Source: Pacificispira spongiicola (lineage in GTDB: Bacteria > Pseudomonadota > Alphaproteobacteria > UBA8366 > Aestuariispiraceae). Taken from it: a stretch of DNA of 64,000 nt. The notes under the pieces were generated by a model. That model was not told the origin of the DNA and ran no database searches. It worked only from the letters and a program-made list of their open reading frames with translations. Of this stretch, positions 29,609-37,503 are shown in pieces. The DNA lies in NCBI RefSeq assembly GCF_012926505.1, contig NZ_JABBNT010000004.1, forward strand, positions 186,001 through 250,000. Direction: 5' to 3'. The first letter of the stretch is position 1. Each line of letters starts with the position of its first letter. The position numbers and the translations under genes were made by a program.

Positions 29609-31078
29609 TCAATGCGGGAAAGAGGCCGCGTCGCATGCAGGCAGCGGCAACCGGATCACGAAACATCCCCCGTCATGGTCGGATCGGTCGATTCCGATGC
29701 TGCCCCCGAAGGTTGAGGCGACGATTTTGCGGCTGATCGCGAGACCTTGGCCGGAGCCGACTCCAACCGGTTTGGTCGTGAAGAACGGGTCGAAAATCTG
29801 GCTTTCGATCTCGACCGGGATGCCGGGTCCATTGTCGATCACCCGGATCGTCAGGCTATCGTTCTCGACGGCGGCGTTGACTTCGATCCGACCGTCGCCG
29901 GGAGGTAAGTAGCCGCTGGCGACTTTTTCCTCGATGGCCTGCGCGGCGTTGACGATCAAATTGATCAGCACCTGGTTCAACTCGTTTGTCCGGCCTGTCA
30001 CCTTCGGCAGGTTCTCAGGCACGTCCGATGTGACGGTCGCGACATGCTTGGTCTGGCTCGTCGTCAGGATCAGCGCGTTTTTGATTTCGCCGACAACATC
30101 GACCGGAACCTCACTGCCATCCTCGGTATGGGCGAAGTGGCGGATCGCCTTCACGATCTCCCCGATTCGACGCATGCCTTCGACCGACTGAGTCAGGGCG
30201 GCGGGCACTTCCTCGCGGTAATATCGGGTGTCTTCGTCATCCGCTTGCGTCGGATCGCTATCCTTCGGTTGAAGCGTATGGTCGAAGGCTTCGCGCAGGA
30301 ATTCCAGGTTGGACATAACGAATTGGGCCGGGGTATTGATTTCGTGCGCGACGCCCCCGGCCAAAGTCCCCAACGCCTGCAGTTTGTTACGTTCCGCTGT
30401 TTCTTCCAGGAACCGCCGTTCGCGTTCTTCCTGTTCCGCCTTGTAGTCGGATCGGTAAGCCTTCAGCATCTGTTGGAAGGCGAAGGTGAAGGCAACCATC
30501 ACGATCGTGACGTTCAGGATAAAGAGCGCCTCCATCCAGTTCAGCATCTGGGTGATTTTGGCATTGCGGCTCGTATTCCGGTTCGACGCGAAATGCAGCG
30601 TCGCGACGGATACCTGCTGCAGGCGCTCTTCGAATGGTGCCAGATCTTGGATTAGGCTTGCCGCAAGGGTCTGGGCATCCATATCGGGTTTGGCCGCAAG
30701 TTCCTTGTCAAGGCCCGCAATGGTTTCCATCAACTGGCCGATGGTTTCGGAAAACACCGCGATGTCGCGAAGGTCTTCGAACCCGGCGCCACGGTGGACC
30801 AAATCGATACGGCTGACGAAAATTTCGTAGGAAATTTCCAGATCGTCCATATGCACCAACTGCCCCGCCAAGGCCTTATCGGACAGTCGCAACGTGGTTT
30901 GCAGTTCCTTTTGTATCTGGAAAACAGCCCATAGCATGTTTTCGCGGAATTCGACGGCTTCCTGCTCCATCTGGTTCCGAAACCAGGTTGAAAAAGCCAG
31001 ATATCCGCCGGCGAGCAGCACTACGACGACCAGCAAGACAATGCGCAGGCGGGGCATGAACTGGGCGGCGGCGGACAT
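29609..31078 (-). CDS. membrane sensor histidine kinase
   Basis: 489 aa. The N-terminal membrane anchor is at about residues 10-29, followed by a helical periplasmic domain of about 140 residues, a second membrane segment near 185-205, and a short coiled-coil link without a clear HAMP. The phospho-acceptor segment is GVAHEINTPAQFV near residue 242. The ATPase has LINLIVNAAQAI, DNGPGIP and GQGLAISRKIV. It lies 37 bp after the periplasmic molybdopterin-fold gene in one leftward unit. It is the likely kinase for the response regulators encoded next to it, which is inference. Confidence 0.9.
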   Translation of the reverse strand: MSAAAQFMPRLRIVLLVVVVLLAGGYLAFSTWFRNQMEQEAVEFRENMLWAVFQIQKELQTTLRLSDKALAGQLVHMDDLEISYEIFVSRIDLVHRGAGFEDLRDIAVFSETIGQLMETIAGLDKELAAKPDMDAQTLAASLIQDLAPFEERLQQVSVATLHFASNRNTSRNAKITQMLNWMEALFILNVTIVMVAFTFAFQQMLKAYRSDYKAEQEERERRFLEETAERNKLQALGTLAGGVAHEINTPAQFVMSNLEFLREAFDHTLQPKDSDPTQADDEDTRYYREEVPAALTQSVEGMRRIGEIVKAIRHFAHTEDGSEVPVDVVGEIKNALILTTSQTKHVATVTSDVPENLPKVTGRTNELNQVLINLIVNAAQAIEEKVASGYLPPGDGRIEVNAAVENDSLTIRVIDNGPGIPVEIESQIFDPFFTTKPVGVGSGQGLAISRKIVASTFGGSIGIDRSDHDGGCFVIRLPLPACDAASFPH

Positions 31079-31115: not shown

Positions 31116-31637
31116 TTATTCGATTGTAATCGATTTAACCTGCCAGACGGAAACCGACCAATAGGTTTCGGTGCGCAGGGCTTCGTCCGTGTTGAACGGG
31201 AAGATCACCCACAGCGGCCCCTTATCGCGAATGGACAGGCGTTCGCCGTTCATCTCATAGGCCAGAATCGCATGGGCGTCGGTCAGCAGCGAGGCTTCGG
31301 TCGTGGCGGCGTAATCGTTCAGCGCGGTGATCGTCAGGGTCTTGCCTTTCGCACCGACCGCGTGAAGCAGCGCGGTGATCGGAACACCCTGGAAGGTCAC
31401 ATTGCCTTCGGTCCAGGGCGTGTTCGTCGTGATGGTTGTCGGGGCGATCGACTTCAGCATGTCGAGGTCGAACATGGCCTGACCAGCGTTATTCGAATGT
31501 TCTATCGTGCCGGAAACGGTCAGGATCGCGCGGCCGGTCGGCATCGGCAATTCACCGGCAAGGGTGGGGGTGCCTTGGCCGATTACGGCGACGACGGTGA
31601 GGCAGGCGACTGCTGCCAGAGAACGGAAAAAGGTCAT
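31116..31637 (-). CDS. periplasmic molybdopterin-domain-like protein
   Basis: 173 aa with a signal peptide (hydrophobic residues about 8-22, cleavage near TLAGE). The mature part resembles the oxidoreductase molybdopterin-binding fold: LTVSGTIEH near the start, a FQGVPITALLHAVGA segment, and a C-terminal ETYWSVSVWQVKSI. The usual cofactor-binding Cys is not seen, so it may be a ligand-binding rather than a redox protein. A strong AAGGAGG site precedes the ATG. It heads the unit with the histidine kinase and could be its periplasmic partner. Confidence 0.68.
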   Translation of the reverse strand: MTFFRSLAAVACLTVVAVIGQGTPTLAGELPMPTGRAILTVSGTIEHSNNAGQAMFDLDMLKSIAPTTITTNTPWTEGNVTFQGVPITALLHAVGAKGKTLTITALNDYAATTEASLLTDAHAILAYEMNGERLSIRDKGPLWVIFPFNTDEALRTETYWSVSVWQVKSITIE

Positions 31638-31695
31638 GGGGGCCTCCTTGATTTCAACTTTATAGTGTTATAACCGGTAAAAAGCGGTATCGAAG

Positions 31696-31717
31696 TCCTC
31701 ATTTGAGGGTGATTTAA
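31696..31717. promoter_or_regulatory. shared 22-bp motif, copy A (upstream of the molybdopterin-domain protein/kinase unit)
   Basis: Contains CCTCA-TT-TGAGG followed by GTGATTTA. Its centre is about 69 bp before the start codon at 31637, and it overlaps the stop of the upstream regulator gene. On the minus strand a TATA-rich stretch lies 23-28 bp further on. It matches copies at 34160 and 37482 at the great majority of positions. Confidence 0.6.
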
Positions 31718-32874
31718 CCGAAGTACCGCGTGACGGGAACTGTGCCGGACAGTTCGGGGTATTTCGGGTCGTGCCGCAGTTTCACGATGTGGAATTCCGA
31801 CAATTCGCTTCCGGCAGATAGCAGTAGCGAGCCGTCCGGTGCCGTCAGATCTTCCTCCAGAATGTCGCCGGGCAGCAAACGCCCAACCTGAACCTCGATC
31901 ACCGTGACCGGCTCCTGCAAATCCGTTTCCCGGAATTCCTCCAGGACGCTGCGGGTCATCATCAGGACGACCGGATCGTAGACCCTTTCCGACTTTTCCA
32001 TCTTCTCCAATTGGGCGAGGGAAGGGCGGCGGGTCCGGTCCATCGGCGTCGCCGCGTTCAGAACCTTCAAGATACGACTGCCCAAGGGGATGTCTTCTTC
32101 GGCAAGAGCAATGCTCTCCGGCGCACCGGTACCGTCGAAGTTCTTGTTCTGGAAACGGATGATCCTGGCGACGCCTTCCAGTCGGGGAACTGACTTGATC
32201 AGTTCGTAGGCGACTTCCGGCTGACGATCGACAAGGATTTGTTCCTCCGGGCCCAAGGGGCGGTGACGGAACAGTTTTTCCAGGATCACTTCCGGGACGC
32301 TCATCCATCCGATGGCGGCCAGCATGGTTGCGATCTTGATTTCCCAGATATTGGGCGCGCCCAGGTCGGCGGCGATCCGAGCGGCCAGCGGCTGTAGCAG
32401 GTTGCTGCGGCTGTAGGCGATCGGATTGATCACGCGCAAGACGTCCAACAGGACCTTCACGCTGCCCGCCAGGGTCTTTTCCAAAAGGTCGCGTTCCATG
32501 CTGCGCAGTTTGAATTGAGTCAACGCGTTGTCGATGGCCGCAGTCATTACGGTGGTTTCACAGGGTTTGTTCAGGAAATTAAAGACGTGGCCGCGGTTTA
32601 CCGCGTCGATTGCCGTTTTCTGATCCGTATTCCCGGTCAGCATGATTCGGATCGCGTCCGGATGTTCCTGGGCGACGGTGGACAGAAATTCCACGCCGTC
32701 CATTTCCGGCATGCGCATATCGGACACGACGACGGCAAACGGACCGGCCGAGTGCAGCTTTTCCAGGGCGGCCTTGCCGCCGCCGGCAAAGTCGATGTCA
32801 TAGCGTCGTTGGAACTGACGCCGGATACCGGCCAGAAGATTAGGGTCATCGTCGACGAAAAGGACTTTACCCAT
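31714..32874 (-). CDS. response regulator with degenerate HD-GYP output domain
   Basis: 386 aa. The receiver occupies residues 1-120, with acidic pocket VDDDP, phospho-Asp D52 in SDMRMPEMDG, and the conserved Lys in NKPC. The C-terminal part has HD-GYP architecture, but the key metal ligands have changed: the HDIGKI-type motif reads AAIGWMS, and the HHxxxDGTGYP motif reads FQNKNFDGTGAPE. It therefore probably no longer hydrolyses cyclic di-GMP and may bind it or act through protein contacts. It begins 3 bp after the EAL gene stop, in one operon. Confidence 0.85.
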   Translation of the reverse strand: MGKVLFVDDDPNLLAGIRRQFQRRYDIDFAGGGKAALEKLHSAGPFAVVVSDMRMPEMDGVEFLSTVAQEHPDAIRIMLTGNTDQKTAIDAVNRGHVFNFLNKPCETTVMTAAIDNALTQFKLRSMERDLLEKTLAGSVKVLLDVLRVINPIAYSRSNLLQPLAARIAADLGAPNIWEIKIATMLAAIGWMSVPEVILEKLFRHRPLGPEEQILVDRQPEVAYELIKSVPRLEGVARIIRFQNKNFDGTGAPESIALAEEDIPLGSRILKVLNAATPMDRTRRPSLAQLEKMEKSERVYDPVVLMMTRSVLEEFRETDLQEPVTVIEVQVGRLLPGDILEEDLTAPDGSLLLSAGSELSEFHIVKLRHDPKYPELSGTVPVTRYFG

Positions 32875-32877
32875 TGG

Positions 32878-34095
32878 TCATCTCCCTGAAGTCAGTAGGA
32901 TTTTCGTCGGCGATGGTGCCATCAAATGGCCGCGTTCCTCCATCCAACCGATGTAAGTTTCGGGTGCCAGCGGTTTGGCAAACAGGTAGCCTTGCATTTC
33001 ATCGATGCCGACGGTCCGGACCAAGTCGTGGTGGCGGTCGTTTTCGATCCCCTCCGCGACGGTTTTCATGCCCAGTTCCCGCGCAAGGTTCCAAACGGCG
33101 GATAGGATCGCACGGTCACGGTCGTTGTCCGGCGCGTTGGTCACGAAGGATCTGTCAATCTTCACGCAATCGACGTCCAGGGATTGCAGATAGTTCATGG
33201 AGGCGAAACCGGTGCCGAAATCGTCGATCGACAATTTCACACCCAGGCTCCGAAGACCTTCCAGCGTTTCGCGAACCAGATGGCCGTCCTTCATTTCCAG
33301 GCCTTCGGTGATTTCCAGTTCCAGGCGCGACGGGTCCATCCCAGTGCGGGACAGGGCGCTGCGCACCATGCCGACAAGGTTCCCCTTTTCGAACAGGGCG
33401 GGGGAAATGTTCACCGACAGCGACAGGTCCAGGTTCCGGTCGTGTTTCCACGTTGTCCAGTTCCGGCAGGTCTTCAGCAGGACCCAGTTGGTGATTTCAC
33501 GGATCGAGCCGTCGGCTTCCGCGGCGGGAATAAAATCGATCGGGGAAATAAGGCCGCGATCCGGATGCGTCCAACGGATCAGGGCTTCGGCGGCATGGGG
33601 GAAACCGGTCAGCGTATCGACGCGCGGTTGGTAATGCACCGCGAATTCCGCATCGAAATCCGCCAGCGCTAGGGCGGCCTTGGTCCAATTCATTTCCGAT
33701 CCATCGGCATTCGCCGTCTGGAGCGCCACATTGTAGGCGATCGCACAATCGTCGAGACAGTTCATGAAATCGCGCGCGGAAGTCGGCTTTTGCAGGAACC
33801 GGAAAACCGATGCTCGGTTTATCGCCGATGTTGCGGTGTCGGCACAGGCATAGCCGGTGAACATCACGCGCGGTGTTTGCGGCGCGACGTGCCGCGCCTG
33901 CTCCAGGAAATCCAAACCGCTCATGCCCTGCATGTTCAAATCGCTGACAACGGCCATGAACGGTCCCTGCTCCCGAAGGCGCGTCAGGCCTTCTTCACCG
34001 CTGGACGCTACGACGACATCGTATCGGGAGCCGAGGATTCGGCGGATGCCTTCAAGCATGAACGGGTCGTCATCGACCACTAGAACGCGGCGCAT
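32878..34095 (-). CDS. response regulator with EAL cyclic-di-GMP phosphodiesterase domain
   Basis: About 405 aa. The receiver has VDDDP and phospho-Asp D52. The EAL domain follows from about residue 150: AAEALIRW, then LELEITE, SIDDFGTGFASM, VKIDRSFV and AEGIE, so the metal and general-base residues appear intact and activity is likely. The ATG at 34095 aligns the receiver with its paralogue (both D52) and sits 75 bp after the centre of shared motif copy C; an upstream in-frame start at 34176 would add 27 residues. First gene of a two-gene leftward unit. Confidence 0.88.
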   Translation of the reverse strand: MRRVLVVDDDPFMLEGIRRILGSRYDVVVASSGEEGLTRLREQGPFMAVVSDLNMQGMSGLDFLEQARHVAPQTPRVMFTGYACADTATSAINRASVFRFLQKPTSARDFMNCLDDCAIAYNVALQTANADGSEMNWTKAALALADFDAEFAVHYQPRVDTLTGFPHAAEALIRWTHPDRGLISPIDFIPAAEADGSIREITNWVLLKTCRNWTTWKHDRNLDLSLSVNISPALFEKGNLVGMVRSALSRTGMDPSRLELEITEGLEMKDGHLVRETLEGLRSLGVKLSIDDFGTGFASMNYLQSLDVDCVKIDRSFVTNAPDNDRDRAILSAVWNLARELGMKTVAEGIENDRHHDLVRTVGIDEMQGYLFAKPLAPETYIGWMEERGHLMAPSPTKILLTSGR

Positions 34096-34159
34096 GGAAG
34101 CTCTCTCTTTCTCGAACTGTGCTTCCTCTGCTATATGTCGAAAGCGATCGGGGGCTCTA

Positions 34160-34181
34160 TCCGCATTTGAGGACAATTTGC
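34160..34181. promoter_or_regulatory. shared 22-bp motif, copy C (between the EAL and LuxR-type regulator genes)
   Basis: Contains CCGCATTTGAGG followed by ATTT. The centre is 75 bp before the EAL regulator start at 34095 and about 40 bp before the LuxR-type regulator start at 34210, so it could act on both divergent promoters. A minus-strand TATAGC-like element lies about 23-28 bp from its edge. Confidence 0.6.
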
Positions 34182-34199
34182 GGAGCGGTTTGTTTTTTC

Positions 34200-34204
34200 G
34201 GAGG
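34200..34204 (+). promoter_or_regulatory. Shine-Dalgarno GGAGG that sets a TTG start
   Basis: GGAGG lies 5 nt before the TTG at 34210. No in-frame ATG occurs before the receiver domain, so this site decides the unusual start. Confidence 0.7.
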
Positions 34205-34209
34205 CCCCT

Positions 34210-35187
34210 TTGACCTCATCCAAGTCCATTGTTTTCGTCGATGACGAACCCCAGATGCTCGCCGCGTTGAAGCGTAGTTTGCGGTCGGCCGCCGCCGATT
34301 GGGATATGGCATTTTACGATGATCCGCTGGAGGCATTGAAAGCCATCGCCGCCAATCCACCGGATGTCGCCGTCATGGATATCCGCATGCCGAAGATGAG
34401 CGGTGTCGAACTCGCCCGCGCGATCAAGGCGGAAGTGCCGGAGGTCGTGTGTATGGTGCTGTCCGGGTCGACCGATTTCGAAGTCGCCGTCGATTCCATC
34501 AACAGCGGCCATGTCTTCCGCTATTTCGTGAAACCCTGCGCGACGGAAACCCTGGTTCAGGGGATTCAGGACGCGCTGGTCCTGCGCGCGGAATGGGACG
34601 ATGCTGTGGCGACCAAACATGCCGCGGCCCCCTCGCTGGCCGCTTTGGAGGTCATACCCTATGGCGTGGTCGTCGTAGGGGAAGACGGCCGCGCGCAATT
34701 CACCAATGCACGCGCAGGCGCCATGCTCGCCGCACCGGGCGGGCTGTCGCTCGATTCCGGGGGAATCTGTCGGGCCGTGAGGTTGGACGAAACCGAGAAG
34801 CTTCAATTGGCAATCGCCAGCGCAAGAGAAACGGGCGAGACGTCGGCGTTGAGCCTATCCGCGGAATCGGACCTGCCGATACGGGTCACGGTACAGCCGT
34901 ATCGTGTTGAAGGGCAGGATAAGACGCAATCCGTGTGTCTATTCCTGTTTTCGGATGAAATGGCGCGGGCCTTGAACCCGAAACTGCTGAATAGCATGTT
35001 CGGTCTGACCGTTGCGGAATCCCGGCTGGCGGCTGCCTTGGCGCAAGGTCTGTCCCTAGACGAGGCAGCCCAGGAATGCGGCGTTACGAAAAGTTCCGCG
35101 CGCACGTATCTGAAGAATATCTTTTCCAAGCTGGGCGTGACGCGTCAGGCGGAATTGGTGCGTACCATTCTGACGTCATTGGCGTGA
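34210..35187 (+). CDS. response regulator with C-terminal LuxR-type HTH domain
   Basis: 325 aa. The receiver has VDDEP, phospho-Asp D57 in MDIRMPKMSG, and Lys in VKPC. A PAS-like middle region (about residues 145-255) follows. The C-terminal about 60 residues form a LuxR/NarL-type helix-turn-helix (LTVAESRLAAALAQG, then ARTYLKNIFSKLGVTRQAELVR). It starts on TTG. It is the only gene of the cluster with a DNA-binding output, is divergent from the EAL gene across motif copy C, and is the natural candidate to bind copies A, B and C. Confidence 0.88.
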   Translation: MTSSKSIVFVDDEPQMLAALKRSLRSAAADWDMAFYDDPLEALKAIAANPPDVAVMDIRMPKMSGVELARAIKAEVPEVVCMVLSGSTDFEVAVDSINSGHVFRYFVKPCATETLVQGIQDALVLRAEWDDAVATKHAAAPSLAALEVIPYGVVVVGEDGRAQFTNARAGAMLAAPGGLSLDSGGICRAVRLDETEKLQLAIASARETGETSALSLSAESDLPIRVTVQPYRVEGQDKTQSVCLFLFSDEMARALNPKLLNSMFGLTVAESRLAAALAQGLSLDEAAQECGVTKSSARTYLKNIFSKLGVTRQAELVRTILTSLA

Positions 35188-35188
35188 G

Positions 35189-36469
35189 CTAGCCGTCTTC
35201 TTGGGCCTGCCCCAATTCCGCCCGTAACGGATCGCCCAGGCCGAGGGCATCCAGATAGTCCCAGTCCAGGACCGGTTCGTGGCCGTGATGCACGAACAGG
35301 GCGGCGTCTTCGCCGCCCGTGTCTGCCCCGGCCATAGCCTGCGCGACATGGACCGCGCAGAGGGCGCCGCGTTCCGGCGGCCCCGCCTTGGCCGGGTGGT
35401 GATGAAAGGCGATCGCTTCCACCACCGGGTCGGCAAATCCCCAGACGGCGACCAGATAGGCGCTCAATTCACTGTGCGTCGCCCCGAACATCGCGCGTTC
35501 GACGGCGCCGACGGACGTATCGTGCTGATCCAGATAGCGCATGGCGCGGGCATAACTGTTCGGTTCGTTGACCTGCAGAACGAGGCTGCCGATATGGGAC
35601 AGCAACCCGGCGGTGGCGGCATGGGTGACAATGTCCGGGTCCATACCGTGCCGTTGCGCGAATTTGCGGGCATACCCGCCGATACGCATCGATCGTTCCG
35701 CAAGTTTCTTACATTCGTCCGCCAGGGCCGAGGATAGCGGCGTCAGCAGGAAGAATTCGGCGACGGTCAACAGTGCCCGGATGGATTCCATGCCCAGCAT
35801 CTCGACCGCTTCCTGGGCGCGCGTCAGGCGTTTCGGCAGACCGAAATAGGCCGAATTGGAAAGGCGGAGGATTTGCGTGGTCAGGCCCAGATCTTCTTCC
35901 AGAACGGCCCCGACGGATTTGGCGGAAGCTGTCGGTGAATCCAATTGCTGCAATAGCGCGTAATAGGTATCCGACGGGACCGGCACGCTTTTCAGGCGTC
36001 CCATCAATTCGCGTAATGCTTCGGTCGGCAGCATGGTGCGCAGGGTCAGCGCTTTTTCGATGCTGGCCGCGATTTCGGCGGCGTCGCAGGGTTTGGCGAA
36101 AAACCTTTGGGCCGGACCCAGGGCCCGTAGAAGGTATTCCTTGTCGGCATATCCGGTCAGGATGTAGCGCAGGCTTTCCGGATGTTCGGTAGCCGCGGCC
36201 TCCAGCACTGCCGCGCCGTCGACATCCGGCATGCGCATGTCGGACACGATTACGTCGAACGGTCCGGCAGCGATGCGGTCCAGCGCGGCCTTGCCGCCTT
36301 CGATAAATTCCATATTCCAGAGGTTGCGGCGATGCCGCAGCGTCCGCCGCAGGCCGTCCAGAATGAACGGTTCGTCATCCACGAACAGAACCGTTGGGCG
36401 TGGCACCGATTCCGACGGAGCCGTGGCCGCGTCTGTGGTCTCATCGTTTCCGTCGGTTTGATCGCTCAT
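35189..36469 (-). CDS. response regulator with HDOD domain
   Basis: About 426 aa. After a 25-residue acidic/Thr-rich leader, the receiver has VDDEP, phospho-Asp in SDMRMPDVDG, and Lys in AKPC. The rest is an HDOD domain (VPSDTYYALLQQLDS, EEDLGLTTQILRLSNSAYFG, AVWGFADPVVEAIAFHH). HDOD proteins act in signalling without the full catalytic HD set. The ATG at 36469 follows an adjacent GTG at 36472. It lies 73 bp after the PhnD-like gene, probably in the same unit, and converges with the LuxR-type gene with a 1-nt gap. Confidence 0.88.
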   Translation of the reverse strand: MSDQTDGNDETTDAATAPSESVPRPTVLFVDDEPFILDGLRRTLRHRRNLWNMEFIEGGKAALDRIAAGPFDVIVSDMRMPDVDGAAVLEAAATEHPESLRYILTGYADKEYLLRALGPAQRFFAKPCDAAEIAASIEKALTLRTMLPTEALRELMGRLKSVPVPSDTYYALLQQLDSPTASAKSVGAVLEEDLGLTTQILRLSNSAYFGLPKRLTRAQEAVEMLGMESIRALLTVAEFFLLTPLSSALADECKKLAERSMRIGGYARKFAQRHGMDPDIVTHAATAGLLSHIGSLVLQVNEPNSYARAMRYLDQHDTSVGAVERAMFGATHSELSAYLVAVWGFADPVVEAIAFHHHPAKAGPPERGALCAVHVAQAMAGADTGGEDAALFVHHGHEPVLDWDYLDALGLGDPLRAELGQAQEDG

Positions 36470-36542
36470 CACATGAGTCCCATTGCCTCTATCTCAGTGT
36501 CGGCCCAAATGCCCGACTGCCGCAACCCTAACGCTATTTTCG

Positions 36543-37418
36543 TCAATTCGGGAACGGACACGGGGTCGTGTTCCCTCCTGGGGGATCAATCGCCAATGCC
36601 TTCAGGCTATCCCAATCGGCGTCTTGGGCGGGGACGATGGCGCTAATGCCCAATTCGCCCACCAAGTCCGGGGAATTGCTGTCGACCGATCCTAGAATAT
36701 CGGATAGGCCGTTTTCCAGGTTGTCCGGCAGGGCTTTGTGAACGGCGAAGGCGTTTGGAGCCACATCCTGCGTCCTATACAGCACCCGCAACGCCGCGCG
36801 TGTCGATTCATCCAGGGCCGCGAAGGAATCCGGCGTGCCGCCGCCGACCGCGACACCGCCTTGTGCGACGGCGTTATAAACCGCTGCCTGAGACTGGAAA
36901 TAGACAGGGGAAATTCGGACACCGGCGGTGCCGATCGCCGACCGCACCAGGATGCTGTCGGCGAAGGAATACAGTGTGGAGAACGCGGCGGTCCGACCGT
37001 TCAAATCGTCCAGCCTATGGATTTGGCTGTCATGGCGGACGACCAGCAGACCGCCGACCCGCGCCGTATCATCGCGTGCGATCGCCCGATAGCCGTCTCG
37101 ACTGTGTGCGGTGACATAGCGAAAGGGGTTCAAATAGACGATGTCGTAGAAACCCGATGCCAGGCAAGCGTCGAAGGATTGGATGTCCTGGACCGTTGCC
37201 AGTCGGATCGGAAGCCCCAGTTGCACGGATAAATGTTCGAGCAACGGCAGCCACACCATCGTCAGATCGCGTTCGGATCGGGTCGGCTCGACTCCAAAAA
37301 TCAACTCATGCCGCGAGTCTCGGTCGGCGGCGGCCTCCGTGGTGGCCGCTGTCGTGGCGACCGTAATTGTGAGGCATAACACCCCCGCCACCCTGGCTAG
37401 GATAGAACAACCGCGCAT
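36543..37418 (-). CDS. PhnD-type periplasmic substrate-binding protein
   Basis: About 291 aa exported protein. A signal peptide (hydrophobic stretch about residues 5-22) precedes RHELIFGVEPTRSE, the typical opening of phosphate/phosphonate-type PhnD proteins. A YDIVYLNPFRYV segment and an AFSTLYSFADS region also match. The ATG at 37418 has a GGAG site 8 nt upstream, and the shared motif copy B centred 74 bp before it. There is no ABC permease or ATPase nearby; the next gene is the HDOD regulator. It is more likely a sensor input than a transporter part. Confidence 0.8.
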   Translation of the reverse strand: MRGCSILARVAGVLCLTITVATTAATTEAAADRDSRHELIFGVEPTRSERDLTMVWLPLLEHLSVQLGLPIRLATVQDIQSFDACLASGFYDIVYLNPFRYVTAHSRDGYRAIARDDTARVGGLLVVRHDSQIHRLDDLNGRTAAFSTLYSFADSILVRSAIGTAGVRISPVYFQSQAAVYNAVAQGGVAVGGGTPDSFAALDESTRAALRVLYRTQDVAPNAFAVHKALPDNLENGLSDILGSVDSNSPDLVGELGISAIVPAQDADWDSLKALAIDPPGGNTTPCPFPN

Positions 37419-37481
37419 GCGAACAGCTCCCGACAGTCCAATGAATGGGAGCACGCTACGGCGGAGACGCTTTCGTCTCTA

Positions 37482-37503
37482 TCCCCATATAGGGGTGATT
37501 TAC
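37482..37503. promoter_or_regulatory. shared 22-bp motif, copy B (upstream of the PhnD-like gene)
   Basis: CCCC-ATATA-GGGG followed by GTGATTTA. Its centre is 74 bp before the PhnD-like start at 37418. The GGGTGATTTA half is identical to that of copy A, and the preceding CTCTATCC is shared with copy C. Confidence 0.6.

Follow-up and report, generated by a model that had tools for sequence, protein, structure and literature searches.

A conserved 7-2-7 inverted repeat at three promoters of a signalling cluster in Pacificispira spongiicola, a putative operator of the cluster's LuxR/NarL-type regulator

In the Hno network of Shewanella, one or more kinases feed an EAL protein together with a degenerate HD-GYP protein; they also feed a DNA-binding regulator, through which the network controls its own genes (PMC6335343, PMC8738867). 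This regulator, HnoC, represses the hno regulon, and its phosphorylation relieves the repression (PMC8738867). Here we describe a comparable signalling cluster of Pacificispira spongiicola, located in a stretch of 64,000 nucleotides (contig NZ_JABBNT010000004.1, positions 186,001 to 250,000; hereafter the window). A short directional DNA site occurs three times in this cluster, each time in front of a leftward operon. We consider it probable that the three copies are operators of the cluster's own LuxR/NarL-type response regulator, acting by class II activation within an Hno-like network.

As in the S. oneidensis system (H-NOX/HnoK/HnoS-HnoB/HnoC/HnoD), the cluster combines kinases with a REC-EAL protein, a degenerate REC-HD-GYP protein and a DNA-binding feedback regulator. 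We infer that the LuxR-type protein plays the role of HnoC. The sensor of Hno is an H-NOX protein, whereas the P. spongiicola genome instead has a small protein of molybdopterin-domain fold (MoPT) beside a kinase and a PhnD-like protein in the cluster. The cluster also adds a REC-HDOD protein, and its regulator is of the LuxR/NarL type with a PAS-like middle domain.

NarL, FixJ and StyR share with this regulator the receiver (REC) domain, the GerE helix-turn-helix (HTH) and a 7-2-7 site near -42, StyR and FixJ being the closest solved folds. In contrast to them, it is about 325 amino acids long, its REC and HTH are separated by an additional PAS-like domain, and its half-site, ATCCYCA, is different. 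The 7-2-7 spacing is that of the inverted repeats bound by NarL, and regulators of the NarL/FixJ type are mostly activators at about -42. In the CrbS/R system of Pseudomonas, which also uses a LuxR-type response regulator with an inverted repeat at target promoters, activation of the regulon depends on an imperfect repeat (the ACTU motif) at -52 to -36 (PMC5715377). However, its motif is another one (e.g. TACTACCATCGTCGAAT), its targets belong to acetate metabolism and there is no cyclic di-GMP (c-di-GMP) cluster. The first-pass annotation of the window did not recognise the regulon as described. Our literature searches found no description either, which is weak evidence of novelty since they covered open-access papers only; a search with the letters of the palindrome returned a single, unrelated human paper. 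A known relative does exist, the Hno network, which that annotation had not named.

The three copies and their promoters

The copies, their predicted -10 elements and the regulator are as follows.

31715-31696, minus strand: copy A, 20-mer AAATCACCCTCAAATGAGGA
31695..31710, minus strand: inverted repeat of copy A, GTCCTCA-TT-TGAGGGT (plus strand), distal AAAT on the minus strand; upstream of the MoPT/HK1 operon
31667..31672, minus strand: predicted -10 TATAAC of the MoPT/HK1 operon (fixed-offset hexamer; predicted start near 31660)
34179-34160, minus strand: copy B, 20-mer AAATTGTCCTCAAATGCGGA
34159..34174, minus strand: inverted repeat of copy B, ATCCGCA-TT-TGAGGAC; upstream of the EAL/HD-GYP operon
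34130..34135, minus strand: predicted -10 TATAGC of the EAL/HD-GYP operon (fixed-offset hexamer)
37501-37482, minus strand: copy C, 20-mer AAATCACCCCTATATGGGGA
37481..37496, minus strand: inverted repeat of copy C, ATCCCCA-TA-TAGGGGT; upstream of the PhnD/HDOD operon
37453..37458, minus strand: weak predicted -10 TAGCGT of the PhnD/HDOD operon (fixed-offset hexamer)
34210..35187, plus strand: LuxR/NarL-type response regulator (REC, PAS-like middle, GerE HTH), proposed binder of the three sites (domain search, model, orthologues)

Read on the minus strand, which is the orientation of the genes downstream of them, the three copies represent a single directional site, AAATNNNCCYYAWATGNGGATA; it is formed around a 7-2-7 inverted repeat with the consensus ATCCYCA-WW-TGRGGAT. 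All three were found where the first-pass annotation had placed them. The exact stretch that it gave as common to A and B, GGGTGATTTA, is in fact common to A and C, and A and B share CATTTGAGG; the stretch assigned to B and C, CTCTATCC, is indeed present in both. Start codons follow at 66, 72 and 71 bp for A, B and C, counted from a reference base. Copy A is situated at the 3' end of the REC-HD-GYP gene.

Counted from the first A of the 20-mer, a -10-like hexamer lies at a distance of 43-44 bases in eleven f1 sites (p = 0.0016, permutation by rotation). From this fixed offset in the window's family, the centre of the inverted repeat is predicted at about -42.5, close to the earlier estimate of -45. 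Nothing resembling TTGACA is seen at -35 of these promoters, and a consensus scan of the region found no sigma-70 promoter. Class II activated promoters are arranged in this way, with a site near -42 and a -10 element but no -35 element. The predicted centre together with the lack of a recognisable -35 makes class II activation of the leftward operons most likely. The TATA-rich element formerly attributed to A and C is found at A (TATAAC); C has just TAGCGT, and the clearer second one belongs to B (TATAGC).

Conservation and specificity of the site

Orthologues of the regulator are encoded in three congeneric genomes (55-57% identity), in G008 (51%), in G007 (45%) and, in another family, in G022 (42%). 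Others were found in G419, G375 and G308, which represent further families, and there are additional ones. The gene types around the orthologues match those of the window, with HK1-like kinases, PhnD, MoPT and REC proteins bearing EAL, HD-GYP or HDOD outputs. The site is again present in front of MoPT, EAL, PhnD and HDOD genes in G001, G003, G005 and G008, and in these genomes as at the window copies it lies 59-72 bp from the start codon. Across orthologous promoters, identity within the site is 57-96%, versus 12-28%, equivalent to random, in the 40 bp on either side. Copy B and its counterparts at the same promoter of G001, G003 and G008 show 83-96% identity, and for copy C and the site at the PhnD promoter of G008 the figure is 78%.

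Unbiased motif discovery in the upstream regions of f1 relatives, with the window left out, returned the site with a nominal log-likelihood ratio (LLR) of 217, versus 64-69 for shuffled sequences. Applied to genomes outside the family, it returned ATCCTCAAATGGGGAT (nominal LLR 170 versus 36-55), whose best sites are in LuxR/PhnD, LuxR/EAL and LuxR/HDOD intergenic regions. Because this out-of-family search returns the palindrome, we regard the palindrome as the ancestral core and the AAAT flank as a feature of the window's family.

The site is also rare. Pattern AAATNNNCCNNNNATGNGGA, derived from the three copies themselves, has exactly 3 exact matches in the 4.2-Mb genome, copies A, B and C, and its reversed control has none in the same genome, even with one mismatch. 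Since this pattern was taken from the copies, independent tests carry more weight. With a matrix made from the relatives alone, the three copies rank 1st to 3rd in the window (31.6, 30.7 and 21.7 bits; the 4th hit scores 12.1). The maximum score of this matrix in 20 Mb of Markov sequence is 20.8 bits, and copy A is only just past this null. A short core pattern, CCYYAWWYGNGGATA, partly tuned on these sites, was run over ten genomes with the regulator and eight without. Each of the eight regulator-less relatives has 0-1 match (two in total), and 6 of the 7 carriers of the window's order have 2-4. Of the 18 matches in regulator-bearing genomes, 13 are inside the cluster, as counted from the listed coordinates. 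Thus, in relatives with an orthologous regulator, the site is rare outside the cluster; whole-genome scanning consisted of pattern searches plus selected stretches, in which weak sites may be missed.

The first-pass annotation had named absence from relatives or scattering as what would speak against the motif. The motif survived this check, being conserved at the same promoters and rare elsewhere. The sequences themselves show the site and its conservation, as well as the geometry of its promoters and the fact that it occurs together with the regulator.

Two more strong sites were found elsewhere in the window's genome, C14:62600 (25.4 bits) and C17:15617 (28.7 bits). The first precedes a gene for a dCache-HAMP-MCP chemoreceptor and has TAAAAG at the expected -10 offset. 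The second is flanked by a DegP-like protease gene on one side and the gene of a small PAS protein on the other; for this PAS protein, no homologue was found in ten relatives searched. The dCache chemoreceptor and the small PAS protein are probable further targets. An outlying site in the distant G308 also precedes a chemoreceptor gene (PAS-MCP). The compact, self-regulating regulon proposed in the first-pass annotation is well supported by conservation at promoters of relatives with an orthologous regulator, by rarity elsewhere and by a fitting inverted-repeat geometry, with probably these two sites to be added. Beyond its own signalling network, the regulator appears to govern little of the genome.

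Three side observations were made. In genus g266, exact or one-mismatch palindromes are present at a second locus, outside the cluster (G375:C7:220450 and 215199, G490:C7:159356). At C17, a 16-codon open frame overlaps the start of the small PAS gene. A site-like sequence of 26.6 bits at G005 L145:16946 was left out as probably due to chance; it is at the 3' end of a copper-ATPase gene and points into the gene.

The regulator and the cluster

The receiver domain of the regulator (PF00072, 70.6 bits) has D11, D12, D57 and K108 invariant across eight orthologues, and the C-terminal HTH is of the GerE type (PF00196, 26.7 bits versus a cut-off of 23.5). An AlphaFold model computed from eight sequences (mean predicted local distance difference test score 81, predicted template modelling score 0.44) shows an extra mixed alpha/beta domain between REC and HTH. 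Whole-chain structural matches of this model are StyR, FixJ, LiaR and NarL, and the PAS-containing VqmA is also listed. The regulator is the only DNA-binding response regulator of the cluster, and the 7-2-7 repeat is conserved at the cluster promoters that are its predicted targets. Its gene was said to be divergent from copy C; it is in fact divergent from copy B, whose repeat is centred about 43 bp before the TTG start of the regulator. In relatives, the corresponding distance is about 25 to 83 bp. This proximity makes autoregulation through copy B likely, with either sign.

The other genes of the cluster are the following.

29609..31078, minus strand: HK1, membrane histidine kinase adjoining MoPT (homologous to kinases beside PhnD, MoPT or H-NOX in the clusters of relatives)
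31116..31637, minus strand: MoPT, small exported Oxidored_molyb-fold protein, 173 amino acids (sole cysteine in the signal peptide)
31714..32874, minus strand: REC-HD-GYP response regulator, degenerate, HnoD-like (domain search, residue inspection)
32878..34095, minus strand: REC-EAL response regulator, predicted c-di-GMP phosphodiesterase, HnoB-like (PF00563, 226 bits)
35189..36472, minus strand: REC-HDOD response regulator (domain search)
36543..37418, minus strand: PhnD-like periplasmic binding protein, candidate sensor subunit (profile search)

In the Oxidored_molyb fold, a cysteine thiolate is the usual molybdenum ligand. The mature form of MoPT has no cysteine in five orthologues, and therefore this ligand is missing. 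MoPT seems to be derived from the sulfite-oxidase fold as a sensory protein without cofactor, which would be paired with the kinase. The PhnD-like gene adjoins an HK1-type kinase in several relatives. H-NOX genes (PF07700) are found inside the regulator's cluster in G375, G490 and G439, where they adjoin HK1-like kinases (L153:11894-12448, L182:7516-8061, L248); none was found in the window's genome or in the other carriers searched.

By inspection, EAL, DDFG and the other catalytic motifs are intact in the REC-EAL protein. The HD pair is missing in six REC-HD-GYP orthologues, and GYP is missing in the window protein. NF053512, a nitric-oxide-linked c-di-GMP regulator of the NosR family, is the best or a high NCBIfam match for all four REC proteins; for the REC-HD-GYP protein it is the best one, at 234 bits under a cut-off of 400. 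A second REC-EAL gene with eroded catalytic motifs and a good operator in front was seen in G008 (L146:8377-9549), and may encode an inhibitory paralogue.

Activation, repression and other explanations

For binding by the regulator, sign of control, phosphotransfer and signal, we infer the following scheme. A phosphorylated dimer of the regulator would bind the 7-2-7 inverted repeat near -42.5, directly upstream of the -10 element, where it would most likely recruit RNA polymerase in the class II manner. The activated units would be MoPT-HK1, REC-EAL with the degenerate REC-HD-GYP, and PhnD with REC-HDOD. On copy B, the dimer could also autoregulate the regulator gene, perhaps by repression. 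One or a few related kinases would feed several REC proteins that set c-di-GMP through the EAL phosphodiesterase and its degenerate HD-GYP partner, and the LuxR-type protein would provide the transcriptional feedback loop of this Hno-like network.

Several points weigh against the proposal. The promoter of copy C has a poor -10 (TAGCGT), and the C17 site has no -10 at the expected place. In the more distant genomes, the sites fit the palindrome without matching the AAAT flank, and they are spaced less uniformly from the start codon. G007 has a regulator of 45% identity, yet the site is not detectable there, and no clear site was found in the G445 cluster. Sites of the relatives were first found with a pattern from the copies of the first-pass annotation, a point that motif discovery addresses; in the latter, divergent genes count one site twice, which inflates the LLRs and leaves the identity of the motif unaffected. 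Finally, HnoC being a repressor relieved by phosphorylation (PMC8738867), the sign of control here could be opposite to the one proposed.

Such a scheme, in which the site is the regulator's operator but the unphosphorylated protein represses and phosphorylation releases it, as for Shewanella HnoC, appears rather unlikely to us. The parts list is the same as in Hno, where HnoC represses until phosphorylated (PMC8738867). Moreover, in all three promoters the site extends over the -35 position, and the regulator's own start is near copy B. The lack of a recognisable -35, on the other hand, is expected of activated rather than repressed promoters, and the general preference of NarL/FixJ-type regulators for activation from about -42 points the same way. 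That a transcription factor encoded elsewhere binds a conserved and functional site, the LuxR-type regulator having other targets, is quite improbable. The regulator without a site in G007 would suit this idea, and the pairing of regulator and site is deduced from sequence. However, exact matches track the regulator and its cluster, the geometry suits a LuxR/NarL-type dimer, and the cluster offers no other DNA-binding response regulator.

Chance resemblance is scarcely credible, and so is a non-regulatory element such as a small repeat or a terminator-like hairpin, in view of the conservation against random flanks, the fixed distance to the -10, the recurrence at promoters of other families and the ranking by the relatives-only matrix. 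A terminator-like stem-loop can be read into copy C on the plus strand; a terminator was rejected there, as no plus-strand gene lies upstream for it to terminate.

Activation by the cluster's own regulator is thus the reading that we retain. Since clusters with this regulator hold H-NOX in some genomes and MoPT or PhnD in others, we read them as one network with exchangeable inputs. On balance, we lean towards a broader view, in which a PAS-bearing LuxR/NarL-type regulator and an undescribed ATCCYCA-WW-TGRGGAT operator would form a narrow, self-feeding regulon, the transcriptional arm of an Hno-like c-di-GMP network. Its inputs (H-NOX, cofactor-less molybdopterin-fold protein, PhnD-like protein) would have been swapped across several families while the operator was kept, and chemoreceptor genes would have been added in at least two lineages.

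The proposal names a specific operator, its regulator and a set of targets for a c-di-GMP switch with multiple kinases and response regulators, in a lineage for which no description was found. As the operator recurs with H-NOX or with MoPT/PhnD, networks that lack H-NOX could be traced through it, and the signals detected by their sensors could then be investigated. It also bears on the question of what the second Hno input, the one that is not nitric oxide (HnoS in Shewanella), may sense.

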